64,000 bases of DNA from Dehalococcoidia bacterium. GTDB lineage: Bacteria > Chloroflexota > Dehalococcoidia > Lucifugimonadales > UBA3495. Where the stretch lies: NCBI GenBank assembly GCA_022827095.1, contig JAJDTP010000004.1:310001-374000 (forward strand), in the 5' to 3' direction. The position numbers were made by a program, and so were the translations under genes. Position 1 is the stretch's first letter, and each line of letters begins with the position of its first letter. Below, in pieces: positions 14,882 through 62,684 of the stretch. Under the pieces are notes generated by a model. The model saw only the letters and a program-made list of their open reading frames with translations. It was not told where the DNA came from and ran no database searches.

Positions 14882-16909
14882 CTACACCTCCGTCAGCCAC
14901 CACCGCGCCGTCCCGTCGCCGCCGGCCACAGTGCTCACCTCCATCCCCTCCAGCAGCCATGCCCCGCCGATGCCCTGTGCTGCCGCGCGCAGACCCACCA
15001 CGTCGGACAGTCTGGCCTCTACCCCGGCCCGGGCGTTGGACCCGGCGAACAGCGGCAGCGTTGCCTCAATCTGCGCCCGCCGCCGTGAGCGCTCCGCGAG
15101 CCGAGCCTCCGCACCGGCTTGCGCCGCCGCGTAGTTGTCCGCGTACCGGCAGTGCACCAGGGTCCCGGACGCCGACGCGTCCACTGCCCCGGCCCGGTGC
15201 GCCGTCGTCGATTCAGCGCGCCAGCAGTGGTTGGCCGACAGGCTCAGGGTCTGCATGTAGGCTCGACCCGTGCCGTCGTTGCGGATGCGCAGCATACGTC
15301 CCCGGCCGGCGATGCCCGATGCCGCTTCGGCAAGCAATTCCACCGTGATGTCGCCGGTCACGTCTGTCCCCGTCCCCGCGGCATCGTCCGTCGCCGTGTA
15401 ATCGGTTTGCGCCACCGGCGCTTGCACTCCATCGATTGCCTCCCATGCTTCCGAGGCTGCCAGCGCCAGACGTTCCTTGCCGGCGTCGATGGCCAGCGGC
15501 TCGTTGAGGCTCCAGACCCTTTGCCGACCCTCGTCAACCAGCCTCCGGTAGCGGAACACCACCGCATCCTCCGTTGCCGATGCTCCGTCGCCCCAGCGCA
15601 GCGCCGAGGCGTACGCGCCGCCGTCAGTGGTGTCGGACACGGTGATCTTGGCCAGCGATGCCGGGTCGCGGTGCGAGCGGATCTTCGACCGCCGCGTCTC
15701 GGATTCCAGCCGGACGCGACCGTGCCCGTCCGTGTAAATCAGCCCGTGCTCCTCGCGCTGCAACCGGCGCAGCGCCCGCGCCGCCGATACCTCCCAAACC
15801 GACCGTGCTCCACCGGTGAGCAGGACCCGTCCCGAGTCCAGATCGTGCTCTCCGGGAGCGAGGCCTGACCAGGCGAGAATGGAGGCGGCCACGTCTCCGG
15901 AGCGCATCGGTCCGCCCGGCAGAGCCCGCCGCAACCGCACCGATGACAGCCGTTGCATTACGTCTGCGGCTTCGATCCGGCAGGTTCCGGCCCCGTAGTA
16001 GGGAGAGATCGCGGTCACCTGCCCTCGGAATAACCCGCGGTCCACGCCGAAGCCGCCCCAGCGGTCCGCCGTGTTACGGAAGCTGTGCCACAGCCCGTGC
16101 CGGCCGGAGTCCGGCGGGTCGACAATTCCGTTGGCGGCCAGCAGGGTGCGTCCGACGGGGTCGCTGGTTTCCAGGTTGATGGCTTGCACCCGGACGCCAT
16201 CCGCCGTCTGTTCGATCTCCAGATCGTGCCACGCCCCAGAAACCAGCGGCCCCCCGGACGCCAACCTCGTCACCGTGGAGCCGGCCACCCGTTCCAGCAC
16301 ACTGGAAACGTGGTCAAACCGCAGCCGCAGGCAATCGTTAGCAGCGACGCACCGCAGCACGAACCCGCCTAGCCCGTTGGTCGCCCTCCGGTAGCGCGCC
16401 GTGAGCGTGGCGATGGCGTCGCCGGTGTCCAGCAACGCCACTGCGTCCGCCGGCGGGAACGATCCCACCGTGCCCCGTGCCTCTCCATCCAGGACCGCAA
16501 AGCCGTTTCCGGCGGTGGCGATCACCTCCCAGCGCCCGTCGCCGAACGCCGCCGGCCGCCGGTCCAGGTCCTCTGATCCCACCCCTGAGGTGGCGAAGTC
16601 GTCGTGCAGCCGGCTGGCCCACAACCTGACCTCGCGGCCGGGTCTGACGTTTGATCCCAGCGAGCCGACGACGTTTCCGGGCGTGTATCTGTGGCCCGCG
16701 TTGTTCAGCGTCAACTCCAGCGTGGCCGGCGCGGCAAACTCGGGTATTGGCAAACCCCGGCGTCCCCAGCCCCAGCGCAGGCCGAGGACGTCGTCCGATA
16801 TATCGACGTCATCTGTGCCCCAGATCCCGTCCCCGTCCCAGTTCACCCATGCCTGCCAGCGCAGCTTGGGGGTTGGAGATGGCGCGGCTGTTTCGATGTT
16901 CATGGTCAT
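14882..16909 (-). CDS. Phage-like tail/minor structural protein with LamG-like insert
   Basis: A 675-residue protein preceded by GGAGGT. It begins WQAWVNWDGDGIWGTDDVDIS, then WGWGRRGLPIPEFAAPATLE and LTLNNAGHRYTPGN. These are typical of phage tail proteins that start a baseplate/hub module. Residues about 115-290 look like a concanavalin A-type jellyroll (GAWHDLEIEQTADGVRVQAIN region). A long middle part resembles tail-spike/hub domains, and the end has LLEGMEVSTVAGG. It is the last gene of the minus-strand structural cassette. Exact tail role is unresolved. Confidence 0.6.
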   Translation of the reverse strand: MTMNIETAAPSPTPKLRWQAWVNWDGDGIWGTDDVDISDDVLGLRWGWGRRGLPIPEFAAPATLELTLNNAGHRYTPGNVVGSLGSNVRPGREVRLWASRLHDDFATSGVGSEDLDRRPAAFGDGRWEVIATAGNGFAVLDGEARGTVGSFPPADAVALLDTGDAIATLTARYRRATNGLGGFVLRCVAANDCLRLRFDHVSSVLERVAGSTVTRLASGGPLVSGAWHDLEIEQTADGVRVQAINLETSDPVGRTLLAANGIVDPPDSGRHGLWHSFRNTADRWGGFGVDRGLFRGQVTAISPYYGAGTCRIEAADVMQRLSSVRLRRALPGGPMRSGDVAASILAWSGLAPGEHDLDSGRVLLTGGARSVWEVSAARALRRLQREEHGLIYTDGHGRVRLESETRRSKIRSHRDPASLAKITVSDTTDGGAYASALRWGDGASATEDAVVFRYRRLVDEGRQRVWSLNEPLAIDAGKERLALAASEAWEAIDGVQAPVAQTDYTATDDAAGTGTDVTGDITVELLAEAASGIAGRGRMLRIRNDGTGRAYMQTLSLSANHCWRAESTTAHRAGAVDASASGTLVHCRYADNYAAAQAGAEARLAERSRRRAQIEATLPLFAGSNARAGVEARLSDVVGLRAAAQGIGGAWLLEGMEVSTVAGGDGTARWWLTEV

Positions 16910-47999: not shown

Positions 48000-49400
48000 A
48001 TGCCTGCCCAACGCACCCGCATTAAAGACCTCCTCTCTGCCGAGAGCTCCGGCGATGTCACCGGGCCCGTCAACGTCAAGGGCTGGGTGAAGACCGTCCG
48101 TTCCTCCGGCGGCGTTGCCTTCGTGCAGATCAACGACGGGTCGACCCTGGCCGACCTCCAGATCGTCGTCGATGCCAACTGCCCCGACTACTCGCTGGTC
48201 AACGGGCTCACCACGGGGTGCAGCATCAGCGCCGACGGCGTCCTCCAGGACTCCCTCGGCCGCGGCCAGAAGTACGAGATCGCCGCGGCGAGCCTTGAAC
48301 TCCTCGGTTCCGCCGACCCCGAGGAGTATCCCCTCCAGAAGAAGCGGCACACCCTGGAGTTTCTGCGGGAACTGGCGCACCTGCGTCCCCGCACCAACAC
48401 CTTCGGCGCCGTGGCCCGCGTCCGCAACGCCATGGCCTTCGGCATCCACAAGTTCTTCCAGGAGCGCGGCTTCCTCTACATCCAGACCCCCATCATCACC
48501 GCCAGCGACGCCGAGGGCGCCGGCGCCATGTTCCGCGCCACCACCCTGGACCTCAACAACCTGCCCCAGGCTGGCGGCCAGGTGGACAACGACGCCGACT
48601 TCTTCGGCCGGCCCGCCTTCCTCACCGTCAGCGGTCAGCTGGAGGCCGAGATCTTCGCCCAGTCCATGTCCGACGTCTACACCTTCGGCCCCACCTTCCG
48701 CGCCGAGAACTCCAACACCTCCCGTCACCTGGCCGAGTTCTGGATGGTCGAGCCCGAGGTTGCCTTCTGCGATCTCGACGGCCTGGCCCAGCTCGCCGAG
48801 GACTTCCTGCGCAGCATCTTCGCCCACGTGCTGGAGAACTGCCCCGAGGACATGGCCTTCTTCAACCGCTTTTACGACCAGGAACTCATCCAGACCCTGG
48901 AGGACATCGCCAACGCTGACTTCGAGCGCATGACCTACACCGAGGCCGTCGCCGCCCTCCAGGCCTCCGGCGAGTCCTTCGAGTACCCTGTCCAGTGGGG
49001 CGCCGACCTCCAGTCCGAGCACGAACGCTACCTCACCGAGCGCAAGGTCGGCCGGCCCGTCATCGTCACCGACTACCCCAGCAGCATCAAGGCCTTCTAT
49101 ATGCGCCTTAGCGACGACGGCCAGACCGTCCGCGCCATGGACGTCCTCGTCCCCCGCATCGGCGAGATCATCGGCGGGAGCCAGCGCGAGGAACGCCTGG
49201 ACATCCTCCAGCGCCGCATGGTCGAGGCTGGCCTGGATGACGCCCCCTACTGGTGGTACCTGGACCTGCGCCGCTACGGCACCGCTCCCCACGCCGGCTT
49301 CGGCCTCGGCTTCGAGCGCACCGTCCAGTTCGCCACCGGCATGCAGAACATCCGCGACATCATCGCCTTCCCCCGCACCCCCCGCAACGCCGAGTTCTGA
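48000..49400 (+). CDS. asnS: Asparaginyl-tRNA synthetase
   Basis: A 466-residue class IIb synthetase. The N-terminal OB domain reads [20 protein letters not shown]. Motif 2 lies near [20 protein letters not shown] (with the AsnRS-type [17 protein letters not shown]), and motif 3 is [20 protein letters not shown]. The insert with [20 protein letters not shown] is normal. This is clear AsnRS rather than AspRS. Upstream gene is the lower-GC unknown pair. Confidence 0.93.
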
Positions 49401-49548
49401 CCGGCATTTCCCGCTTTTGCCGTCGTCAGGCGCGCGACGAATTATTATCGGGTTAGTTTCGCGTTGATGCATTATCGGCAGTAAATGGTCGCGTTTAGAG
49501 GATACGGGCGCTCTGCACGCCTTGTTGGACGAATTCTGGTTCAGCATG

Positions 49549-49597
49549 ATCATCATTATTGATGATAATTGACATCGTGTTTTGGCTTTGATACTGT
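49549..49597 (+). promoter_or_regulatory. Promoter and palindromic operator of SBP gene 1
   Basis: ATCATCA-TTAT-TGATGAT palindrome at 49549-49566, then TTGACA at 49569-49574, a 17-base spacer and TACTGT at 49592-49597. The palindrome abuts the -35, a position suited to a repressor. Confidence 0.7.
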
Positions 49598-49666
49598 CTG
49601 CCCCGAAACGAGTTGCTGCACTGTATTCGTGCACGAATTCGTAAATCTATGGCAGGGAGTAAACAA

Positions 49667-51490
49667 ATGCTAAAGTGTCATACGATGCGATTGCCGCGAT
49701 TCGTAATATTGATATCGCTGGCACTGACAATCGCTGCTGTCTGGGCCTGCGGCGGAACTACCGCTGCACCCGAACAGCAGGCCGCCGCGCCGGCCGCCAC
49801 GGAAGCGGCGCCTGTCCAGGCTGCGGCCACCGCGGCGCCCGAACCCACCGCCATGCCGGCCATGGCCGACGAGGCGAGCTATCTCCACCTGGCCGTGACC
49901 CCACTGCCCCAGGACACCTTCTTCCCGTGGCTGGCAACCAGCAGCGGCCAGCTCGTCTTCCGCCCCATGTGGGAAAACCTCACCACCATCTCCCCCGAGA
50001 CCGGCGTCTCCACCGTTCTCCCCCAGCTGGCGCGCGAGTGGGAGATGAGCCCCGACGCCAGCCAGTACACCTTCCACCTCCAGGAGGGTGTCGAGATGCA
50101 CCACGGCTGGGGCGAGTTCACGATCAGGGATGTCATTCTCACCATCGACCAGCAGATGTCCGACCCGCTGGCCGGATGCAAGGGCCCCCTGAAGAAGTTC
50201 ATGGGCTTCGACTCCATGACCGAGATGGTCGACGCCGGCAAGATGGAGGTCATTGACGACTACACCTTCCGGATGGACCTGGCCCAGCCCCAGGTGGACG
50301 TGGCCGACTGGTGGTTCAACATCCTGGTGATCCCCTGCGCCGCCGTCCGCAGCTCGGCCCAGCACGCGGAAGAAGGCGACTCGATGTTTGAGACCGGGCC
50401 GGCGGGAACCGGCGCCTTCCAGTTCGTGAACCGCGAGCTGAAGGAGTACACCGAGTACGAGGCGGTCCCCTACGACCACTGGCGCGTCAACCCCGAGTTC
50501 CAACGCCTGCGCATCAGCACCACCCCCGAGGACCTGACCCGCCTGGCCATGCTCCTCACCGGCGAGGCCAACATGGTGGACGTGCCCAAGGTGCTGCACC
50601 AGCAGGCCATCGACGAGGGCATGGAGGTCTTCGAGAGCCCGCTGCCCTCCGTCGGCCTCTCCCTCTTCCCGCTCGGTCAGTACTACGTCAGCCAGGTCAA
50701 CTGGAACCCCGACACCGAACCGTGGAACGCTCCTGGAGAAACGGGAAACAAGGTTCGGGAAGCGCTGAACCGCGCCATCAACCGTGAACAGATCATCAAC
50801 GAGCTGTTCAAGGGTCGCGGCGAGCCCATGTACAACACCATCTTCCACCAGTCCCTGGAAGGTTGGAATCCCCGGTGGGTGGAGGAGTTCGAGGAGAGGT
50901 ACGGCTACGACCCGGAACGGGCCAAGCAGTTGCTGGACGAGGCGGGCTACCCCGGCGACAACGGCCAGAATCGTTTCTACATGGAGGTGTACCAGACCAG
51001 CCTGCCCGGCCTGCCGGAGACCATCGAGGTGGCGCAGACCGTCGCGCAGTCGTTCGAGGACATCGGCATCGATGCCAAGCTGGTGGAGGTGGAATTCGCT
51101 CGCGCTCTGGACGCCTTCCGCGACCAGCACGACGCCCACTTCCTTCTCCCCGCCCGCCAGACCATCCGGCAGATCAACGCTAACACACGCATCTACTATT
51201 ACACCGGACCCATCGATCCCGAGCTGGGTCGTCCCACCGGCGGCGTCCTCTACATGGAGGGACAGCTCTACGACGACACCTACGAGCGCCTCTTGGTGGA
51301 AACGGACCCCCAGGTCCGCCACGAGCTCATCCAGAAAATGGGCGACGACATTTACGACACCTACCGCACCATCCCCGTGGTAAACATCCGCTCGACTCTG
51401 GTGGCCAATCCCGACGAGGTGGCGGAGTACAAGTTCGGCAGCCTCACCGGCGTGTTCGGCCACTTGGAGTACGCCAAGCGCGCCAGGTAG
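49667..51490 (+). CDS. ABC transporter substrate-binding lipoprotein, SBP_bac_5 type (paralogue 1 of 5)
   Basis: A 607-residue protein. The ATG at 49667 is chosen because GGGAG lies seven bases upstream; longer in-frame starts exist. A signal ends in LTIAAVWAC (Cys28 for lipid attachment), then an Ala/Pro/Thr-rich linker of about 45 residues. The binding fold is of the oligopeptide/nickel class (SBP_bac_5). Shared with the other four copies are FFPWLATSSG, NLTTISPETGV, GRGEPMYNT and FGHLEYAK. Members 1, 2 and 3 share PCAAVRS; members 4 and 5 have GCMAVRS. Ends at a strong terminator. Confidence 0.85.
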   Translation: MLKCHTMRLPRFVILISLALTIAAVWACGGTTAAPEQQAAAPAATEAAPVQAAATAAPEPTAMPAMADEASYLHLAVTPLPQDTFFPWLATSSGQLVFRPMWENLTTISPETGVSTVLPQLAREWEMSPDASQYTFHLQEGVEMHHGWGEFTIRDVILTIDQQMSDPLAGCKGPLKKFMGFDSMTEMVDAGKMEVIDDYTFRMDLAQPQVDVADWWFNILVIPCAAVRSSAQHAEEGDSMFETGPAGTGAFQFVNRELKEYTEYEAVPYDHWRVNPEFQRLRISTTPEDLTRLAMLLTGEANMVDVPKVLHQQAIDEGMEVFESPLPSVGLSLFPLGQYYVSQVNWNPDTEPWNAPGETGNKVREALNRAINREQIINELFKGRGEPMYNTIFHQSLEGWNPRWVEEFEERYGYDPERAKQLLDEAGYPGDNGQNRFYMEVYQTSLPGLPETIEVAQTVAQSFEDIGIDAKLVEVEFARALDAFRDQHDAHFLLPARQTIRQINANTRIYYYTGPIDPELGRPTGGVLYMEGQLYDDTYERLLVETDPQVRHELIQKMGDDIYDTYRTIPVVNIRSTLVANPDEVAEYKFGSLTGVFGHLEYAKRAR

Positions 51491-51519
51491 TCGATCACGT
51501 CAAACTCCGGGCCTGCGAA

Positions 51520-51560
51520 TCCTGGGGCGTCGCTCAACCGACGCCCCAGGATGTTTTCGT
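51520..51560 (+). terminator. Terminator after SBP gene 1
   Basis: Perfect 13-base stem TCCTGGGGCGTCG / CGACGCCCCAGGA, 6-base loop, then TGTTTTCGTTT. Confidence 0.85.
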
Positions 51561-51703
51561 TTAGTCGCTTAACGGGCGACTATTTTTACGAATTCCATCA
51601 TTATTATCAGTATCATCGATATGATTTAGCAATTTGATGTGTATATACCTAAAGCAAACGTAATCAGATGTTTGACTCGGGATATTATCTTGATAAGCGA
51701 TAA
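51561..51703. other. AT-rich gap between terminator 1 and promoter 2
   Basis: About 140 bases without gene content. Together with the hairpin and promoter it makes the 309-base spacer between SBP genes 1 and 2. Several ATTATCA/TGATAAT half-sites occur just before the promoter. Confidence 0.6.
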
Positions 51704-51732
51704 TTGACATCACAAATTGCCGGTGATACTGT
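51704..51732 (+). promoter_or_regulatory. Promoter of SBP gene 2
   Basis: TTGACA at 51704-51709, 17-base spacer, TACTGT at 51727-51732. The flank TGATAAGCGATAATTGACAT resembles the site before gene 1. Confidence 0.7.
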
Positions 51733-51799
51733 CTGGCGGGAAACAAAACACCCCTTTGTACGACAAGTGTTTTGAAACTGAACGTCAGGAGGTAACTCT

Positions 51800-53641
51800 A
51801 TGGCAATTTACCGTTCGGCTCGTTGGCCGCGCCCGGCTCGTTTGTCTCAGATCGCGGTCGCCCTGGTGCTGCTGTTATCCCTCGCAGCCCTCTGGGCCTG
51901 TGGAGGGTCCGAGGCCCCGGCGGCTCCCGCCGCCCCTGCCGCCACCGCGGCGCCGGCTGCCCCGGCTCAGGCCGCCGCCACCGCCGCTCCCGAACCCACC
52001 GCCATGCCGGCCATGGCCGATGAGGATAGCTACCTCCACCTGGCCGTCACCCCGCTGCCCCAGGACACCTTCTTCCCCTGGCTGGCCACTAGCAGCGGAC
52101 ACCTCCCCTTCCGCCCCATGTGGGAGAACCTGACCACCATCTCGCCCGAGACCGGCGTCTCCACCATCCTGCCCCAGTTGGCCCGGGAATGGGACGTCAG
52201 CCCCGACGCCTCCGAGTACACCTTCTACCTCCAGGAGGGCGTCCAGATGCACAACGGCTGGGGCGAGTTCACCGTCAAGGACGTGGTGCTGACCATCGAC
52301 CAGCAGATGTCCGATCCGCTGGCCGGCTGCAAGGCCCCCCTCAAGCGCTTCATGGGCACCGACTCCATGACCGAGATGATCGACTCCGGCGCCGCTGAAA
52401 TCATCGACGACTACACCTTCAAGATGACCCTGGCCCAGCCTCAGGTGGACGTCGCCGACTGGTGGTTCAACATCCTGGTCGTCCCCTGCGCCGCCGTCCG
52501 CAGCGCGGCCCAGTATGAGGCCGAGGGCGACGCCATGTTCGAGACCGCCCCATCCGGAACCGGCGGTTACCAGTTCGTCGATCGTGAGCTCAAGGAGTAC
52601 ACCGAGTACGAGGCCGTGCCCTACGACCACTGGCGCGTTAACCCCGAGTTCAAGCGGATGCGCATCACCACCGCCCCCGAGGACCTGACCCGCCTGGCCA
52701 TGCTCCTCACCGGCGAGGCCAACATGGTGGACATTCCCAAGGTGCTGCACCAGCAGGCCATCGACGAGGGTATGGAAGTCTTCGAGAGTCCTTTGCCCTC
52801 CGTGGGACTCACCATCCTTCCCCTGGGGCAGTATTACAAGAGCGAAGTGAACTGGAACCCCGAAACCGAGCCTTGGAACGCCCCCGGCGAGACCGGCAAC
52901 TTGGTCCGTGAGGCCCTGAACCGCGCCATCAACCGCGAGCAGATCATCAACGAGCTGTTCAAGGGTCGCGGTGAGCCCATGTACAACACCATCTTCCACG
53001 ACACCCTGGAGGGCTGGAACCCCCGCTGGTCCGAAGAGTTCGACGAAAAGTACGGCTACGATCCGGAACGGTCGAAGGAGCTTCTGGACCAGGCCGGCTT
53101 CCCCGGCGACAACGGCCAGAACCGCTTCTCCATGGAGGTCTACCAGTCCAGCCTGCCCGGCTTGCCGGAGACCATCGAGGTCTCGCAGACCGTCGCCCAG
53201 TCCTTCCAGGACATCGGCATCGACGCCAAGCTGGTGGAGGTTGAGTTCGCCCGCGCGCTGGACGCCTTCCGCGACCGCCACGACGCCCACTTCATCCTCC
53301 CCGTGCGCCAGACCATCCGGCAGATCAACGCCAACGCCCGCATCTACTACTACACGGGCGAGACCAACCCGGAGACCGGTCTTCCCAACGGCGGCGTCCT
53401 GTACATGGAGGACCAGCTGTACGACGACACCTACGAGCAGCTCCTTATCGAGACTGACCCGGCGGAGCGCAACCGGATCATCATGAAGATGGGCGATGAC
53501 ATCTACGACACCTACCGCACCATCCCCATCGTCAACATCCGTTCCACCCTCGTGGTGAACCCCGACGAGGTGCTGGAGTACAAGTTCGGCAGCCTCACCG
53601 GCGTTTTCGGCCACTTGGAGTACGCCAAGCGCGCCCAGTAG
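51800..53641 (+). CDS. ABC transporter substrate-binding lipoprotein, SBP_bac_5 type (paralogue 2 of 5)
   Basis: A 613-residue protein with CAGGAGGTAACTCT before the ATG. The signal ends in SLAALWAC (Cys34), followed by a linker rich in Ala-Pro ([16 protein letters not shown]). Residues from about 75 to the end are very close to copy 1: NLTTISPETGV, HNGWGEFTVKDV, GRGEPMYNT, FGHLEYAKRAQ. The linker is the least conserved part. It has its own promoter and terminator. Confidence 0.85.
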   Translation: MAIYRSARWPRPARLSQIAVALVLLLSLAALWACGGSEAPAAPAAPAATAAPAAPAQAAATAAPEPTAMPAMADEDSYLHLAVTPLPQDTFFPWLATSSGHLPFRPMWENLTTISPETGVSTILPQLAREWDVSPDASEYTFYLQEGVQMHNGWGEFTVKDVVLTIDQQMSDPLAGCKAPLKRFMGTDSMTEMIDSGAAEIIDDYTFKMTLAQPQVDVADWWFNILVVPCAAVRSAAQYEAEGDAMFETAPSGTGGYQFVDRELKEYTEYEAVPYDHWRVNPEFKRMRITTAPEDLTRLAMLLTGEANMVDIPKVLHQQAIDEGMEVFESPLPSVGLTILPLGQYYKSEVNWNPETEPWNAPGETGNLVREALNRAINREQIINELFKGRGEPMYNTIFHDTLEGWNPRWSEEFDEKYGYDPERSKELLDQAGFPGDNGQNRFSMEVYQSSLPGLPETIEVSQTVAQSFQDIGIDAKLVEVEFARALDAFRDRHDAHFILPVRQTIRQINANARIYYYTGETNPETGLPNGGVLYMEDQLYDDTYEQLLIETDPAERNRIIMKMGDDIYDTYRTIPIVNIRSTLVVNPDEVLEYKFGSLTGVFGHLEYAKRAQ

Positions 53642-53671
53642 CCCGCGTCGGAAACTTCAACGACCCAACGC

Positions 53672-53705
53672 ATGGGGGCGGTGTCCAACCGCCCCCATAT
53701 ATTTG
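53672..53705 (+). terminator. Terminator after SBP gene 2
   Basis: Stem ATGGGGGCGGT / ACCGCCCCCAT with GTCCA loop, then ATATTTGC. The T-tract is weak. Confidence 0.7.
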
Positions 53706-53752
53706 CAGGGTCTTTCCGAAGTCTTGGATGGCGGCCTTTCACCCTGAACTGT

Positions 53753-53830
53753 CATAGGACTTACGCAGTTGGAAGCCTTTACACTCGTCATTCCCGCGAA
53801 AGCGGGAATCCAGAACGTTCCGAGAACAAC
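53753..53830. repeat. Repeat element between SBP genes 2 and 3
   Basis: CATAGGACTTACGCAGTTGG (53753) is the inverse of 35003-35024, and is followed by GTCATTCCCGCGAAAGCGGG of the 20704 family. Confidence 0.75.
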
Positions 53831-53892
53831 GATCTGCTGTATTCTCGCTTCCGCGAGGGTGGCAGATTAACTTTGAAAGCGGCCCAATATAT

Positions 53893-53921
53893 TTGACGCA
53901 ATCGTTGACGCTATGGTACGA
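53893..53921 (+). promoter_or_regulatory. Weak promoter candidate for SBP gene 3
   Basis: TTGACG at 53893-53898, 17 bases, then GTACGA at 53916-53921. The -10 is poor; the clear TGATAA pattern of the other four is missing. Confidence 0.3.
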
Positions 53922-53955
53922 AAACAACGCTAAACATCGCTTGGGAGGCTTGAGT

Positions 53956-55779
53956 ATGACGTCAATTGGTGTGAAACGCGTTCGGCGGTGGTTTATTGTT
54001 CCATGCGTATTGGCAACGTTGATCGTGATCGTGGCCTGCGGAGGCTCGACGCCGCCCGTCGAAGAAACCTCGGAAGCCCCGGCGCCGGCCGCCGCGTCGG
54101 CTCCGGTCAGTGCGACCGCCACGCCGGCCCCCACGCCCGAGCCGGCGGACGCCGAGGTCGAAACCGCCCTGCACCTGGTCGTCACCCCGCTGCCCCAGGA
54201 TACGTACCTGCCCTGGTTGGCCACCAGCGGCGGGCAGTTGCCCATGCGGCCGATGTGGGAGAATCTCACCACCATCTCGCCCGAGACCGGCGTTTCGACC
54301 ATCCTGCCCCAGCTGGCCCGGGAGTGGGAAATCAGCGCCGACGCCAGCGAGTACACCTTCCGTCTTCAGGAAGGTATCCCCTTCCATTTCGGCTGGGGCG
54401 AATTCACGGTACAGGACGTGATCCTCACGATTGACCAGCAGACCTCGGACCCGTTGGCCGGCTGCCGGGCGGCCATAACCCGTTTTATGGGGGCCGACTC
54501 CATGAGCGAGATGGTCGCGAACGGCGACATGGACGTCATCGATGACTACACCTTCACCATGCGCCTGGCCGAGCCGCAGGTGGACGTGGCCGACTGGTGG
54601 TTCAACATCCTGGTAATCCCGTGCGCCGCCGTACGCAGTTCGGCTCAGCACGCCGACCAGGGCGACGCGATGTTCGAGTCCGGTCCGGCCGGAACCGGCG
54701 CCTACCAGTTCGTTTCCCGCACCCTGAAGGAGACGGCGGAGTTTGAGGCGGTACCCTATGATCACTGGCGCGTCAATCCTGAGTTCAAGCACCTGAAGAT
54801 CACCACATCCCCGGAGGACTTGACCCGCCTGGCGATGCTGCTCACCGGCGAGGCCAACATGGTGGACGTGCCCAAAGTGCTGCACCAGCAGGCCATCGAC
54901 GAGGGCATGGAGGTGTTTGAAAGCCCCCTCCCCTCCGTGGGCCTGACCATCCTTCCTTTCGGCCAGTACTACGTTACCCAGGCGAACTGGAATCCTGACA
55001 CCGAGCCGTGGAACGCGCCCGGGGAAACGGGAAACAAGGTTCGTGAAGCGCTCAACCGGGCCATTGATCGGGAGCAGATCATCAACGAGCTTTTCAAGGG
55101 GCGCGGTGAGCCCATGTACAACACCACTTTCCACCAGTCGCTGGAGGGCTGGAATCCGCGCTGGGAGGATGAGTTCCAGGAGAAGTACGGCTATGATCCG
55201 GAACGCGCCAAGGAGTTGCTGGACGAGGCGGGCTTCCCCGGTGATAACGGCCAGAATCGGTTCTACATGGAAGTGTGGCAGAGCAGCCTGCCCGGCCTGC
55301 CCGAAACCATCGAGGTGGCGCAGACGGTAGCCCAGTCCTTCGAGGACATCGGCATCGACGTCAAGCTGGTTGAAGTGGAGTTCGCCCGCGCCCTGGACGC
55401 CTTCCGCGACCAGCACGACGCCCACTTCATCCTGCCGGTGCGCCAGACCATCCGGCAGATCAACGCCAACGCGCGGATCTATTACTACGCCGGCGGGGGC
55501 AAGACCAACGCGGCCGGTCTGCCCACGGGCGGGGTCGCTTACATCGAAAGCCCACTGTACGACGAGACGTATCACAAGCTCCTGAAGGAGACCAATCCGG
55601 AGGAACGCCATCGACTGGTGCAGAGGATGGGCGATGACATCTACGACACCTATCGCACCATTCCCGTCGTCAACGTCCGGGCCACCCTGGTGGCCAACCC
55701 GGAGGAGGTGGCGGAGTACAAGTTCGGCAGCCTGACCGGAGTCTTTGGGCACCTGGAGTACGCCAAGCGCGCCCAGTAG
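53956..55779 (+). CDS. ABC transporter substrate-binding lipoprotein, SBP_bac_5 type (paralogue 3 of 5)
   Basis: A 607-residue protein; the ATG at 53956 follows TTGGGAGGCTTGAGT. The signal ends VIVAC (Cys28), and the linker is shorter and more Glu/Pro-rich than in the others. Differences from the family consensus: GRLQEGIPFHFGWGEF, and TADQQ replaced by TIDQQTSDPLAGC. It lacks the Met of TIDQQM. It retains GRGEPMYNT and FGHLEYAK. Ends at a strong terminator. The coding part is intact. Confidence 0.85.
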   Translation: MTSIGVKRVRRWFIVPCVLATLIVIVACGGSTPPVEETSEAPAPAAASAPVSATATPAPTPEPADAEVETALHLVVTPLPQDTYLPWLATSGGQLPMRPMWENLTTISPETGVSTILPQLAREWEISADASEYTFRLQEGIPFHFGWGEFTVQDVILTIDQQTSDPLAGCRAAITRFMGADSMSEMVANGDMDVIDDYTFTMRLAEPQVDVADWWFNILVIPCAAVRSSAQHADQGDAMFESGPAGTGAYQFVSRTLKETAEFEAVPYDHWRVNPEFKHLKITTSPEDLTRLAMLLTGEANMVDVPKVLHQQAIDEGMEVFESPLPSVGLTILPFGQYYVTQANWNPDTEPWNAPGETGNKVREALNRAIDREQIINELFKGRGEPMYNTTFHQSLEGWNPRWEDEFQEKYGYDPERAKELLDEAGFPGDNGQNRFYMEVWQSSLPGLPETIEVAQTVAQSFEDIGIDVKLVEVEFARALDAFRDQHDAHFILPVRQTIRQINANARIYYYAGGGKTNAAGLPTGGVAYIESPLYDETYHKLLKETNPEERHRLVQRMGDDIYDTYRTIPVVNVRATLVANPEEVAEYKFGSLTGVFGHLEYAKRAQ

Positions 55780-55805
55780 CGCCAAAGCAACATTCGCCGG
55801 TCCAT

Positions 55806-55841
55806 TTGGGACGGAATTCCACAATTCCGTCCCAATTTTTT
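55806..55841 (+). terminator. Terminator after SBP gene 3
   Basis: Perfect 13-base stem TTGGGACGGAATT / AATTCCGTCCCAA, CCAC loop, then TTTTTT. Confidence 0.9.
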
Positions 55842-55866
55842 GCGCAATATTTCACAATAGTATTTA

Positions 55867-55907
55867 TGATAATGATTATTGACTATAATGATAAAGTTTG
55901 CTAACCT
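55867..55907 (+). promoter_or_regulatory. Promoter and Fur-like box of SBP gene 4
   Basis: TGATAAT-G-ATTATTG (55867-55881) is close to a 7-1-7 Fur-type operator and overlaps the -35 TTGACT (55879-55884); after a 17-base spacer comes TAACCT (55902-55907). ACCTATTAGGT follows. Confidence 0.6.
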
Positions 55908-55968
55908 ATTAGGTAACACCAGCGAAAGCGCGGCGCATGATTGGTTGACGAACTGCGGAGGTGTGGCC

Positions 55969-57795
55969 ATGTCCGTTCATCGTATAGCTGAACCGTTTCG
56001 CACGATCCAATTGCTCCTGTTGTTGCTGGCCCTGCTTGCGGTGTGGGCGTGCGGCCGGGCGGCCGCTCCCCACGAGGAAATCGCCGTCCCCGCCGCTGCC
56101 GACGGCGCGTCCGCCAGCGCCGTATCCACCGCGGTCCCGGCGCCCACCCGGGTTCCCTCCATAGCCGAAAGCGACGCCATGCTCCACCTGGCCGTCACCC
56201 CGCTGCCCCAGGACACTTTCTACCCCTGGCTAGCCACCAGCAGCGGCCACCTGGTCTTCCGCCCCATGTGGGAGAACCTGACCACCATCGACCCCAGGAC
56301 CGGCGTCTCCGACGTCTACCCCCAACTGGCTCGTGACTGGGAAGTCAGCCCCGACGCCAGCGTGTACACCTTCCACCTCCAGGAGGGCGTGCAGTTCCAC
56401 TTCGGCAACGGCGAGTTCACCGTCAATGACGTGATCCTCACCGCCGACCAGCAGATGTCCGACCCACTGGCCGGCTGCAAGGCCCATCTCAGCCGGTTCA
56501 TGGGCGCTGACTCCATGACCGAAATGATCGAAAACGGCGACATGGAGATCATCGACGACTACACGTTTCGGATGAAACTGGCTCAGCCCCAGGTGGACGT
56601 TGCCTCCTGGTATTTCAGCATCCTGCAGATCGGCTGCATGGCCGTCCGCAGTTCCGCCCAGCACGCTGCTGAGGGCGACCTCATGTTCAAGAGCGGCCCG
56701 GCTGGCACCGGCGCCTACCAGTTCGTGAACCGGGAGCTGAAGGAGTACTCCGAGTATGAGGCCGTTCCCTACGACCACTGGCGAGTGAACCCCGAGTTCA
56801 AGCGCCTGCGCATCAGCACCACCCCCGAGGATCTCACCCGCCTGGCCATGCTGCTCACCGGCGAGGCCAACATGGTGGACGTGCCCAAGGTGCTGCACCA
56901 GCAGGCCATCGATGAGGGCATGGAGGTGATCGAAAGCCCGCTGCCCACCGTCGGCCTCACCGTCATCCCCCTAGGGCAGTACTACGTCACCGAGGTCAAC
57001 TGGAACCCCGACACCGAGCCCTGGAACGCTCCCGGCGAAACCGGCGTGCTGGTCCGCCAGGCCATGAACCGCGCCATCAACCGTGAGCAGATCATCAACG
57101 AGCTGTTCAAGGGCCGCGGCGAGCCCATGTACAACACCATCTTCCACCCGTCGCTGGAAGGCTGGAACCCCCGCTGGGAGGACGAATTCGACGAGAAGTA
57201 CGGCTATGATCCGGAACGCGCCAAGCAGTTGCTGGACCAGGCCGGCTTCCCCGGCGACAGCGGCCAGAACCGGTTCAGCGTGGAGGTCTGGCAGTCCAGC
57301 CTGCCCGGCTTGCCCGAAACCATCGAGGTTTCCCAAACGGTGGCCCAGTCCTTTGAGGACATCGGCATCGACGTCAAGCTGGTTGAGGTGGAATTCGCTC
57401 GCGCCATCGACGCCATGCGTGATCGGCACGACGCTCACTTCATCCTTCCGGTACGCCAGACCATCCGCCCCATCAACGCCAACACCCGGATCTACTACTA
57501 CGCCGGCGGTGGCCGGGTCAGCGAAACGTCGGGACTGCCCACGGGTGGCGCTATCTATATGGAAGGCCAGTTGTATGACGACACCTATGACCGCCTCCTG
57601 GTGGAGACCGACCCCGCCGAGCGCAATCGCCTGGCCCGGGTCATGGGCGATGACATCTACGACACCTACCGTTCCATCCCCATCGTCAACGTCCGGTCCA
57701 CCCTGGTCATAAACCCGGAGGAAGTGAGCGAGTACGTCTTCGGCAGCCTGACCGGCGTCTTCGGCCACCTGGAGTACGCCAAAGCCGCGAAGTAG
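55969..57795 (+). CDS. ABC transporter substrate-binding lipoprotein, SBP_bac_5 type (paralogue 4 of 5)
   Basis: A 608-residue protein. The ATG at 55969 (CGGAGGTGTGGCC) is used, because the longer frame to 55879 would overlap the promoter. Signal ends ALLAVWAC (Cys28). With copy 5 it forms a subgroup: shared MSVHRIA start, VYPQLARDWEVS or similar, and LQIGCMAVRSSAQ instead of PCAAVRS. Closest relatives of each other lie side by side, so successive tandem duplication is likely. Ends with a near-perfect terminator. Confidence 0.85.
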   Translation: MSVHRIAEPFRTIQLLLLLLALLAVWACGRAAAPHEEIAVPAAADGASASAVSTAVPAPTRVPSIAESDAMLHLAVTPLPQDTFYPWLATSSGHLVFRPMWENLTTIDPRTGVSDVYPQLARDWEVSPDASVYTFHLQEGVQFHFGNGEFTVNDVILTADQQMSDPLAGCKAHLSRFMGADSMTEMIENGDMEIIDDYTFRMKLAQPQVDVASWYFSILQIGCMAVRSSAQHAAEGDLMFKSGPAGTGAYQFVNRELKEYSEYEAVPYDHWRVNPEFKRLRISTTPEDLTRLAMLLTGEANMVDVPKVLHQQAIDEGMEVIESPLPTVGLTVIPLGQYYVTEVNWNPDTEPWNAPGETGVLVRQAMNRAINREQIINELFKGRGEPMYNTIFHPSLEGWNPRWEDEFDEKYGYDPERAKQLLDQAGFPGDSGQNRFSVEVWQSSLPGLPETIEVSQTVAQSFEDIGIDVKLVEVEFARAIDAMRDRHDAHFILPVRQTIRPINANTRIYYYAGGGRVSETSGLPTGGAIYMEGQLYDDTYDRLLVETDPAERNRLARVMGDDIYDTYRSIPIVNVRSTLVINPEEVSEYVFGSLTGVFGHLEYAKAAK

Positions 57796-57822
57796 TCGCA
57801 CTGCAACGTCCGCTGACCGGTT

Positions 57823-57857
57823 CGGGACGGAATGCGTAATTCCGTCCCGTTTTCGTT
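57823..57857 (+). terminator. Terminator after SBP gene 4
   Basis: Stem CGGGACGGAAT / ATTCCGTCCCG, GCGTA loop, then TTTTCGTT. The stem is related to terminator 3. Confidence 0.85.
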
Positions 57858-57881
57858 GTGCAATAATTCACAATTGCGAAT

Positions 57882-57924
57882 TATGATAACGTATATTGAC
57901 ACTATAAATGAGATTTGATAACGT
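57882..57924 (+). promoter_or_regulatory. Promoter of SBP gene 5
   Basis: TTATGATAACGTATATTGAC flank; TTGACA (57896-57901), 17 bases, TAACGT (57919-57924). It uses the same spacing as promoters 1, 2 and 4. Confidence 0.65.
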
Positions 57925-57985
57925 TTTGCGTAACAATAGCGAACGCGTGTTGCGTGATCAGGCGACGAACCACGGAGGTGTGGCC

Positions 57986-59806
57986 ATGTCCGTTCATCGT
58001 ATAGCTAAACCGTTGCGCCTAATGCCAATGCTCCTGTTGTCACTGGCCCTGCTTGCGGTGTGGGCGTGCGGCGAATCGGCCGCTCCTGCCGGGGAGAGCG
58101 CCGCGCCCGCCCCGGCCACCGCGGCGCCTGCCAGCGTTGCCGCTACCGCAGTCCCCGAAGCAACCGCAGTGCCCGCCATGACCGAAAGCGAGGCCATGCT
58201 CCACCTGGCGGTGACCCCGCTGCCCCAGGACACTTACTATCCCTGGCTCGCCACCAGCAGCGGCCACCTGGTCTTCCGCCCCATGTGGGAGAACCTGACC
58301 ACCATGTCGCCGGAAACGGGCGTGTCCGAGATCTATCCGCAACTGGCGCGGGACTGGGAAATCAGCGCCGACGCCAGCGAGTACACCTTCTACCTGCAGG
58401 AGGGCGTGCAGTTCCACTTCGACCAGGGGGAGTTCACGGTGAAGGACGTGATCTTCACCGCCGACCAGCAGATGTCCGACCCGTTGGCCGGCTGCAAGGC
58501 CACCCTGAGCCGGTTCATGGGCGCCGACTCCATGACCGGCATGATCGAAAACGGCGACATGGAGGTGATCGACGATTACACCTTCAAGATGTCGCTGGCC
58601 CGCCCCCAGGTGGACGTGGCCTCCTGGTACTTCAACATCCTGCAGATCGGCTGCATGGCGGTGCGCAGCTCGGCGCAGTACGAGAAGGAAGGCGACGTCA
58701 TGTTCGAGAGCGGCCCCGCCGGAACGGGTGGCTACCAGTTCGTGGAGCGCAAGCTGAAGGAATACACCGAGTACGAGGCCGTGCCATTCGACCACTGGCG
58801 CGTCAACCCCGAGTTCAAGCACATGCGCATCACCACCACCCCGGAGGACCTGACCCGGCTGGCCCTGCTGCTCACCGGCGAAGCCAACATGGTGGACGTG
58901 CCCAAGGTGCTGCACCAGCAGGCCATCGACGAGGGCATGGAGATCCTGGAAAGCCCCCTGCCCACCGTGGGCCTCACCATCATCCCCTTCGGACAGTACT
59001 ACGTGAGCGAGGTCAACTGGAACCCCGACACCGAGCCCTGGGCTGCCCCCGGCGAAACGGGCAACCTGGTGCGGGAAGCCATGAACCGCGCCATCGACCG
59101 GGAGCAGATCATCAACGAGCTGTTCAAGGGCCGCGGCGAGCCCATGTACAACACCATCTTCCACGACTCCCTCGAGGGTTGGAACCCCCGGTGGGAGGAC
59201 GAGTTTGACGAGAAGTACGGCTACGATCCCGATCTGGCCAAGCAACTGCTGGACCAGGCCGGCTACCCCGGCGACAACGGCCAGAACCGCTTCAGCGTGG
59301 AGGTCTGGCAGAGCAGCCTGCCCGGATTGCCGGAAACCATCGAGGTGTCGCAGACGGTGGCCCAGTCCTTTGAAGACATCGGCATAGACGTCAAGCTGGT
59401 GGAGGTGGAATTCGCCCGCGCCCTGGACGCCTTCCGCGACCGGCACGACGCCCACTTCGTCCTGCCGGTGCGCCAGACCCTGCGCCCCATCACCGCCAAC
59501 GCCCGCATCTACTACTACACGGGGGATATCAATCCGGACACCGGAATACCCGGTGGCGGGGTGGCCTACATCGAGGATCAACTCTACGACGACACTTATC
59601 ACCGGCTGCTGGAGGAAACGAACACCGATGAACGGGAACGGCTGGCCCAGGTGATGGGCGACGACATCTACGACGAGTACCGAACCATTCCCGTCGTCAA
59701 CATCCGCTCCACGCTGGTGGTGAACCCCGAGGAGGTGGCCGAGTACGTCTTCGGCAGCATCACCGGCGTCTTCGGCCATCTGGAGTACGCCAAAAAGGCG
59801 AACTGA
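57986..59806 (+). CDS. ABC transporter substrate-binding lipoprotein, SBP_bac_5 type (paralogue 5 of 5)
   Basis: A 606-residue protein; the ATG at 57986 follows GGAGGTGTGGCC. The signal ends ALLAVWAC (Cys28). The first 28 residues differ from copy 4 at only a few positions. The C-terminal lobe keeps GRGEPMYNT, GDDIYDEYRTIPVVN and FGHLEYAKKAN. Copies 4 and 5 both have TADQQMSDPLAGC. No permease or ATPase of the Dpp type follows; the next gene is an FbpC/PotA-type ATPase. Confidence 0.85.
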   Translation: MSVHRIAKPLRLMPMLLLSLALLAVWACGESAAPAGESAAPAPATAAPASVAATAVPEATAVPAMTESEAMLHLAVTPLPQDTYYPWLATSSGHLVFRPMWENLTTMSPETGVSEIYPQLARDWEISADASEYTFYLQEGVQFHFDQGEFTVKDVIFTADQQMSDPLAGCKATLSRFMGADSMTGMIENGDMEVIDDYTFKMSLARPQVDVASWYFNILQIGCMAVRSSAQYEKEGDVMFESGPAGTGGYQFVERKLKEYTEYEAVPFDHWRVNPEFKHMRITTTPEDLTRLALLLTGEANMVDVPKVLHQQAIDEGMEILESPLPTVGLTIIPFGQYYVSEVNWNPDTEPWAAPGETGNLVREAMNRAIDREQIINELFKGRGEPMYNTIFHDSLEGWNPRWEDEFDEKYGYDPDLAKQLLDQAGYPGDNGQNRFSVEVWQSSLPGLPETIEVSQTVAQSFEDIGIDVKLVEVEFARALDAFRDRHDAHFVLPVRQTLRPITANARIYYYTGDINPDTGIPGGGVAYIEDQLYDDTYHRLLEETNTDERERLAQVMGDDIYDEYRTIPVVNIRSTLVVNPEEVAEYVFGSITGVFGHLEYAKKAN

Positions 59807-59831
59807 CCAAGCCGGCAGTCATCAATGATAT

Positions 59832-59869
59832 ACTGGCCCTGCCGGGAGGAGGGGTCCGACAGGGCCAGT
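59832..59869 (+). terminator. First hairpin after SBP gene 5
   Basis: Stem ACTGGCCCTG / CAGGGCCAGT with an 18-base loop. No T-run follows, so it may act as RNA stabiliser rather than terminator. Confidence 0.4.
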
Positions 59870-59891
59870 TGCCCATGCGAGGGGCAGAAAA

Positions 59892-59929
59892 CGGGGCGTT
59901 ACTGCCGCTAAAGTAACGTCCCGCTTTTC
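59892..59929 (+). terminator. Terminator after SBP gene 5
   Basis: Stem CGGGGCGTTAC / GTAACGTCCCG (one G-T pair) then CTTTTC. Confidence 0.7.
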
Positions 59930-60337
59930 ATGTTGGAGCTCGGGCCATGCGGCGACGGGCTGGGGTCCCCGGCATTCAACGGGGGCGCCGCAGTCGAGCG
60001 GTTCGGCGCATGAGTCTCTGTTAGTCCCACGTCAGTTCCGGTTTTCAAGATGGCGTTCATTGAATTGCGTCCGTATGCGATGATTAGTTTAGTGCACACG
60101 TAATCTATTGTCAATGATATACGCAACGGAAAATGTGTTGAATCTGTAGGTTGCGAATCTGTCCTGCCGCGGACCGGCAATTTCCTCTCAACACGCGCCA
60201 TTTGGGTTGCCTACGCCCGTCGCGGCATTGAAATCTGGAACTTGGAGCCCGGCCGCTGGTTGTCCGGGTCGGCCTCCGGAAGTTGCCTTCGGGCGCATCC
60301 GGCGATGAAACGCGCCATATCGCGGATACGGAAAATA
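59930..60337. other. Gap between the SBP array and the ATPase gene
   Basis: About 400 bases with no convincing gene on either strand; short frames have no ribosome site or family features. No repeat of the families seen elsewhere is recognised here. Confidence 0.6.
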
Positions 60338-61754: not shown

Positions 61755-62684
61755 GTGGCCGTATACGAAACTTTTGCCAAGCGTAAGCGAAAGGCTGAAC
61801 AATCCGGTAAGCCAGTAGTATTTCGCCAAGACACAATGCCAGAAGCGTTCAGGATTCAGGTTGCCCACATCCTAGACAGCACAATCGGACATCCAGCAAA
61901 TGCCGTAGGGGGTGATCACTTCCATAGGACGCAAAACTATTGGCGCACCTTGCACGCTACCCTAACCAGGGAGATGGGTGTGTTCTACCTGTGGCCTAAC
62001 AGCCAAGATCATTACGTATCCTGCGGGAATTTTCTACTGAATTCCGACGACGTCGACGAAGTCCTCAGCCTAATCGAGTTGGCCTTCGTCAATTTGCAAC
62101 TGCGCGATTATTTGCTGTTGGGCCAGCAATCGCCGGACGATGCGATCGACGAGTTGAACCACCGTTTCCGCGAGCACGCGATCGGCTATCAGTTTCAAGG
62201 TGGCCAGATCATCTCGGTAGAGTCCCAGTATCTGCATATCGAAACCGTCGAGCCTGCCATATCGTTGCTTTACGACGCCCAGTTTGAGGGTCCCCTACAG
62301 GAGTTCATGCAAGCCCACGAGCACTTCCGCAAGGGAAACCACAAAGACGCTATCGTCAACGCCCAGAACGCTTTCGAAAGCACGATGAAGGCCATTTGTG
62401 ATCAACAGGGATGGGCTTACGTCCGCGAGAAGGCTACGGCGCAAAACCTGCTCAAGGTGCTGTTTGACAACGGGTTGATACCGGCAGAGATGCAAAGCCA
62501 TTTCACCGCGTTGCGTTCCACATTGGAGAGTGGTCTGCCGACCGTACGAAACCGGGGCGGTCGCGGTGGGCATGGTCAAGGGGCCGATGTGGTGGAGGTG
62601 CTCGACTATCTGGCTGCGTACTGTTTGCATCTGGCGGCGACCAATATCGTGCTGCTCGTCGAAGCGCACAACGCGTCGAAATAG
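61755..62684 (+). CDS. STM4504/CBY_0614-like protein with Abi-C domain
   Basis: A 309-residue protein. It begins VYETFAKRKRKAEQSGKPVV and has RIQVAHILDSTIG, matching the STM4504 family N-terminus in my recollection. The C-terminal about 110 residues (HEHFRKGNHKDAIVNAQNAF, then RNRGGRGGHGQG) match Abi-C, a HEPN-like helical domain with a GGxGHG loop. Proteins of this type are placed with abortive infection. Local GC is lower than the flanking genes. Phage defence is an inference. Confidence 0.6.
   Translation: MAVYETFAKRKRKAEQSGKPVVFRQDTMPEAFRIQVAHILDSTIGHPANAVGGDHFHRTQNYWRTLHATLTREMGVFYLWPNSQDHYVSCGNFLLNSDDVDEVLSLIELAFVNLQLRDYLLLGQQSPDDAIDELNHRFREHAIGYQFQGGQIISVESQYLHIETVEPAISLLYDAQFEGPLQEFMQAHEHFRKGNHKDAIVNAQNAFESTMKAICDQQGWAYVREKATAQNLLKVLFDNGLIPAEMQSHFTALRSTLESGLPTVRNRGGRGGHGQGADVVEVLDYLAAYCLHLAATNIVLLVEAHNASK

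Follow-up and report, generated by a model that had tools for sequence, protein, structure and literature searches.

The locus analyzed here encodes five substrate-binding proteins (SBPs) in a row, which raises the question of whether they serve a transporter encoded elsewhere in the genome and, if so, which one. The window, by which we mean the whole 64-kb stretch of DNA under study (G000:C14:310001-374000), belongs to an uncultivated marine Chloroflexota of the SAR202 type, whose genome of 3.79 Mb is assembled in 35 contigs; the contig carrying the window ends at 377,880. No permease was found near the array, neither in the window, as the original prediction had stated, nor in the last 3.9 kb of the contig.

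The SBP Array and Its Signals

The five genes stand head to tail on the plus strand, each a full open reading frame with a ribosome-binding site. Positions are those of the window.

48000..49400, plus strand: AsnRS-like aminoacyl-tRNA synthetase, named by sight and not by family search; borders the array on its left side in five congeners
49667..51490, plus strand: SBP copy 1, lipoprotein of 607 aa, PF00496; in an array-copy clade with G006, G011, and G001
51800..53641, plus strand: SBP copy 2, 613 aa, PF00496 (177.6 bits in a separate search); 84% identical to the operon paralog on contig C1
53956..55779, plus strand: SBP copy 3, 607 aa, PF00496; in a clade with G006, G009, and G004
55969..57795, plus strand: SBP copy 4, 608 aa, PF00496
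57986..59806, plus strand: SBP copy 5, 606 aa, PF00496
60417..61574, plus strand: FbpC-type ABC ATPase that carries a TOBE_2 domain; borders the array on its right side in five congeners but is probably not its ATPase

In the profile search of the genome, the five copies score 178.9-193.2 bits against PF00496 (cut-off 32.4), which places all of them in SBP_bac_5, and with lengths of 606-613 aa they bear out the claim of five tandem paralogs of about 607 residues. Every copy shows a lipoprotein signal, that is, a hydrophobic leader followed by A-C-G near residues 26-34, with a Trp at position -2 of the lipobox in four of the five, a departure from the usual consensus. Pairwise identity among the copies ranges from 74 to 82%, and the closeness of copies 4 and 5 (80.5%) that had been noted before is real, the other closest pair being copies 1 and 2 (82.2%). 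Because the copies share between 63 and 93% of their nucleotides, depending on the place in the mature region, and identical blocks are absent, a collapsed or artificial duplicate is excluded; the orthologous lineages across species and the arrays in one-contig genomes described below also rule out the assembly artefact that had been considered a possible objection. Pairwise dN/dS is 0.02-0.13 between orthologs and 0.15-0.25 between paralogs, values that indicate functional constraint under purifying selection with modest divergence. A protein with AbiJ_NTD4 and DUF7014 domains (window 61755-62684), possibly the product of a defence gene, adjoins the array locus and also occurs in G006.

The putative transcription signals, all on the plus strand, are as follows.

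49569..49597, plus strand: promoter of copy 1, TTGACA-17-TACTGT with TG before the -10 element; aligned with orthologs in G006, G011, and G001
51519..51552, plus strand: terminator of copy 1, hairpin and T-run; fold of -31.7 kcal/mol with context, z -6.6
51704..51732, plus strand: promoter of copy 2, with a 36-bp pattern that is common, genome-wide, only to the SBP of the C1 operon
53672..53698, plus strand: hairpin after copy 2, -23.8 kcal/mol; lacks a T-run and is conserved in both G006 and G009
53893..53922, plus strand: promoter-like element of copy 3, weak and conserved; TTGACG...TATGGTACGA
55806..55835, plus strand: terminator of copy 3, hairpin and T-run, by folding
55879..55907, plus strand: promoter of copy 4, TTGACT-17-TAACCT
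57823..57849, plus strand: terminator of copy 4, hairpin and T-run, by folding
57896..57924, plus strand: promoter of copy 5, TTGACA-17-TAACGT
59892..59923, plus strand: terminator of copy 5, hairpin and T-run, by folding

Copies 1, 2, 4, and 5 are preceded by TTGACA/T-17 bp-TANNNT, in most cases with the -10 element extended by a preceding TG(n). These promoters are kept in the orthologous genes, in agreement with the earlier count of four clear promoters, and the same architecture aligns across array copies and operon copies of other genomes. A simple consensus scan alone recovered few of them. Copy 3 and its orthologs have only a weaker conserved element, located behind palindromic repeats that vary by species; the repeat 5' of copy 3 (window 53789-53813) is unique in the window, and the equivalent gap in G006 and G009 holds similar yet different palindromic repeats. 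The promoter leader of copies 4 and 5 is altered relative to the other copies. Judged from the hairpins, transcripts would end separately behind copies 1, 3, 4, and 5; the claim that each copy has its own terminator holds in full for these four only, because the hairpin of copy 2 has no T-run. A search of the regions upstream of the copies against Rfam matched no known RNA, riboswitches included. The sequence TGATAATGATTATTG 5' of copy 4 had suggested a Fur-like operator; the signal conserved across the family at this place is the promoter itself.

A Sixth Paralog beside a Permease Pair

The profile search of the genome gave 29 SBP_bac_5 genes and 50 BPD_transp_1 domains. By position, 24 of the 29 SBP genes fall in 20 loci with permease pairs, and the five in the window are the only orphans. 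Permease loci with more than one SBP lie at C1:169-177 kb (three SBPs), C1:78-84 kb (two), and C5:680-686 kb (two); transporters with several receptors are thus common here.

Looking for Dpp-class permeases outside the window, as had been proposed along with the original prediction, we found a likely cognate pair on contig C1. It adjoins a sixth paralog (SBP6, C1:39.7-41.5 kb), which shares 84.4% identity with copy 2 and 82.8% with copy 1 and is thereby closer to these two copies (83-84%) than copy 1 is to copy 3 (76.7%); any SBP of the genome beyond this six-member family shows at most 43% identity in long matches. SBP6 and the genes of two Dpp/Opp-type BPD_transp_1 permeases, PermB (which carries BPD_transp_1_N) and PermC, occupy C1:37.3-41.5 kb, and two divergent genes at C1:44.8-46.9 kb encode ATPases with oligo_HPY tails, that is, of the OppD/OppF type. 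The family thus comprises five plus one SBPs and one permease pair adjoining a member. A gene for a PQQ_2 beta-propeller protein also lies beside SBP6, and a divergent gene nearby is CoA-transferase-like (named by sight).

A promoter sequence also connects the two loci. The 36-bp pattern TTGACATN6TTGCCRRTGNTAMTGTYTGGCGG, allowing at most 3 mismatches, has two sites in 3.79 Mb, one 5' of copy 2 and one 5' of SBP6, and a control search with the reversed pattern gave 0 matches; because the pattern was built from those promoters, the search shows its absence at other genes and is not an independent match.

Linkage and Co-occurrence in Sister Genomes

It is evident from the comparison of 14 congeneric genomes that the SBP family and PermB occur together. 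The family (at least 70% identity) is present in 10 of the 14, and the other four contain nothing closer than ~39%; a PermB ortholog of 93-100% identity is present in the same 10, and its best match in the same four is 64%. Within the genus, that is, among these 14 genomes, the SBP family was never seen without a PermB ortholog, and in the list of permeases compared across congeners no other was observed to match the distribution of the family in every genome.

The array and the operon are separate in some of these genomes and joined in others. A detached array of 3-5 SBPs between the AsnRS gene and the FbpC-type ATPase gene occurs in G000, G001, G006, G009, and G011, and in the same five genomes one SBP remains beside PermB/PermC. 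Because the array (447-455 kb) and the operon (695-699 kb) lie ~240 kb apart on the single 4.38-Mb contig of G011 (OX638345.1), this separation is real. In G012, also a single contig (3.97 Mb, OY282456.1), three tandem SBPs separate OppD from PermB. The array of G004 has assembly gaps and includes copies that are broken or gapped; in both relatives the array is directly upstream of PermB. The original prediction had counted permease genes adjoining the array as evidence against it; the genome studied here has none, and those in the two relatives favor sharing. Since G003, G005, and G013 have a single SBP with the permease, as do the more distant family members in G032, G036, and G041 (57-59%), where it stands beside PermB, one SBP per operon is likely the ancestral state. 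The gaps that flank the arrays in other genomes contained no SBP remnants. The operon SBP of G006 (L117:6196-7983) has an in-frame TAA and ends at 527 aa; this copy may be dispensable where an array exists, or the TAA may be a sequence error.

Taken as genomic evidence, these results suggest that all five array SBPs very probably serve one importer of the Dpp/Opp type, encoded on C1. The proposal of a ligand-scavenging set that shares a distant transporter is thus strongly supported, by the operon with SBP6, the promoter match, the co-occurrence in 10 of 10 genomes, and the linkage in two congeners. The family would have multiplied from one operon SBP, and in the lineage of the window most copies would have been relocated to the site between the AsnRS gene and the FbpC-type ATPase gene. 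With its own promoter, each receptor could be expressed alone; each lipoprotein would capture its ligand outside the membrane, and the loaded lipoproteins would then dock on the shared PermB-PermC-OppD-OppF importer. Docking on the C1 permease is predicted, and the copies may differ in ligand range and in expression.

The array SBPs could instead use one or more other Dpp-type permease pairs, since the genome encodes many related permeases (19 Dpp-type loci besides the family operon on C1), or the neighboring FbpC-type ATPase, which adjoins the array, together with a distant FbpB. We consider this improbable, given that none of the other listed permeases tracks the SBP family exactly and that FbpC is found in orthologous form in 14 of 14 congeners, including those free of the SBP family, with a distance of ~0.4-1.4 kb to FbpB in seven. 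Because it is kept in congeners lacking the SBPs and stands near FbpB in these seven, FbpC in all appearance belongs to a separate, iron-type system, and as the ATPase of the array it was rejected on the same grounds. FbpC and FbpB are split apart in the clade of the window, and the likely FbpB partner, with two permease domains, is on another contig (G000:C29:32593-34233; L063:8593-10236). The FbpB ortholog of G001 (G001:C42:411879-413497) was matched as two pieces in different frames.

It has also been proposed that the array encodes surface receptors, i.e., sensors or surface-binding proteins that act without transport. Some SBPs are known to have transport-independent and signaling roles, and the array is unlinked from permeases in five congeners. 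However, no sensor kinase or other signaling partner was noticed between the AsnRS gene and the FbpC ATPase gene, the array lineages sit in the operon position in other species, and within the genus the family never occurs apart from the permease. We found no positive evidence for such receptors, and we consider independence from a permease highly improbable.

History of the Receptor Lineages

In the tree, copy 1 groups with sequences from G006, G011, and G001, copy 3 with those from G009, G006, and G004, and copies 4 and 5 with sequences from G004 as well as array copies from four other genomes. Because the copies group by lineage across species, the SBP lineages are older than these species. 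The operon copy of G011 is sister to an array copy of G001 (support 100/100), and the operon copy of G001 is sister to an array copy of G011 (support 96/88). Such pairing of operon copies with the array copies of another species could be explained by an exchange of places between array and operon, by gene conversion, or by hidden paralogy with differential loss. A more speculative and rather unlikely extension is that the receptors form a system of cassettes, in which SBP lineages move back and forth between the array and the one site next to the permease; if true, species would differ in the receptor at the operon site, and the rest would stay in the array, each individually expressed.

Known Systems with Several Receptors

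Systems in which several receptors feed a single transporter have precedents in Borrelia, Pseudomonas, and Streptococcus, and the array with its predicted importer is best read as resembling the OppA1-5 system of Borrelia or the DppA1-5 system of Pseudomonas. Borrelia burgdorferi OppA1-A5 are five homologous oligopeptide-binding lipoproteins with few permeases and one ATPase pair; three oppA genes are in tandem with their own promoters, two orphans lie elsewhere, and the binding proteins are regulated independently of the constitutive permease (PMC5736914). The array shares with them the five homologous binding lipoproteins, the tandem genes with individual promoters, and, as predicted here, the shared permease. 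The loci are not orthologous, and Borrelia has its chromosomal tandem genes together with the operon and its orphans on separate genetic elements, whereas here all five are detached and a sixth is in the operon.

In Pseudomonas aeruginosa, five SBPs (DppA1-A5) serve one DppBCDF, four being encoded near the operon and one far from it (PMC4206461). Five SBP_bac_5-type proteins per single permease set is the arrangement predicted here as well; however, the Pseudomonas proteins are ~50-60% mutually identical, compared with 74-84% here, and their sharing was tested with mutants (PMC4206461), whereas ours is read from the genes. In Streptococcus pneumoniae, the separately located SBPs AmiA, AliA, and AliB use one Ami permease (PMC5736914), a case of fewer and dispersed SBPs in contrast to one array.

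What is new here is the organism, an array of five genes that is completely detached, a partner identified by linkage in sister genomes, and the apparent interchange of receptor lineages between array and operon. A transporter partner can thereby be proposed for a seemingly orphan receptor array in an uncultivated Chloroflexota of the SAR202 type, and the case illustrates how gene order in sister chromosomes assembled as one contig can be used to resolve orphan SBPs. Sponge-associated Chloroflexi are reported to have many ABC transporters, including oligopeptide ones (PMC6306507); a literature search returned no paper that joins SAR202, sponge, and substrate-binding.

Divergence of the Copies and the Ligand

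Within the shared-importer reading, the five copies might differ little in function: all of them would bind the same ligand and chiefly raise the receptor density for one scarce nutrient. This dosage effect, which is compatible with a shared transporter, seems to us a real possibility, if somewhat short of an even chance. The loop motifs EV[YW]Q[ST]SLPGLPETIE and P[AV]RQT[IL]R[QP]I[NT]AN are near-identical in all copies, just 33 positions are fixed within SBP lineages and different between them, and purifying selection is strong. On the other hand, the lineages are old and have been kept separate across species without homogenization, and five of the fixed substitutions in copies 4 and 5 cluster at 220-231 (D220S, W222Y, V227Q, P229G, and A231M, in copy 2 numbering). 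Because of this clustering and the changed promoter leader, copies 4 and 5 may work with a different ligand or partner. The six paralogs are a natural set, diverged yet comparable, in which to ask whether SBP expansion broadens the ligand range or just raises the dosage.

Among proteins of solved structure, HbpA and DppA are the closest in sequence. In DppA, Arg355 binds the carboxylate of the ligand and Asp408 its amino group. Unlike DppA, all copies have Ser or Thr in the column of Arg355, with no Arg nearby, the exact column being uncertain in this gapped profile alignment; classical dipeptide recognition through an equivalent of Arg355 thus seems unsupported. The HMMER alignments of the copies stop short of the Asp408 column. 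An AlphaFold2 model of copy 2, built with 28 relatives, had a mean pLDDT of 46 owing to a too shallow alignment and was rejected as a basis for a fold search or pocket mapping. The ligand is presumably a peptide, or else some other organic compound bound by SBPs of cluster C.

The neighbors of the permease genes are possible clues to the fate of the ligand. In most of the congeners checked, the PQQ_2 gene comes after those of the permeases (PQQ_2 and CoA-transferase-like genes at L066:7739-9091 and 14992-16350), and in five genomes CoA-transferase-like genes lie between the SBP and OppD/F.
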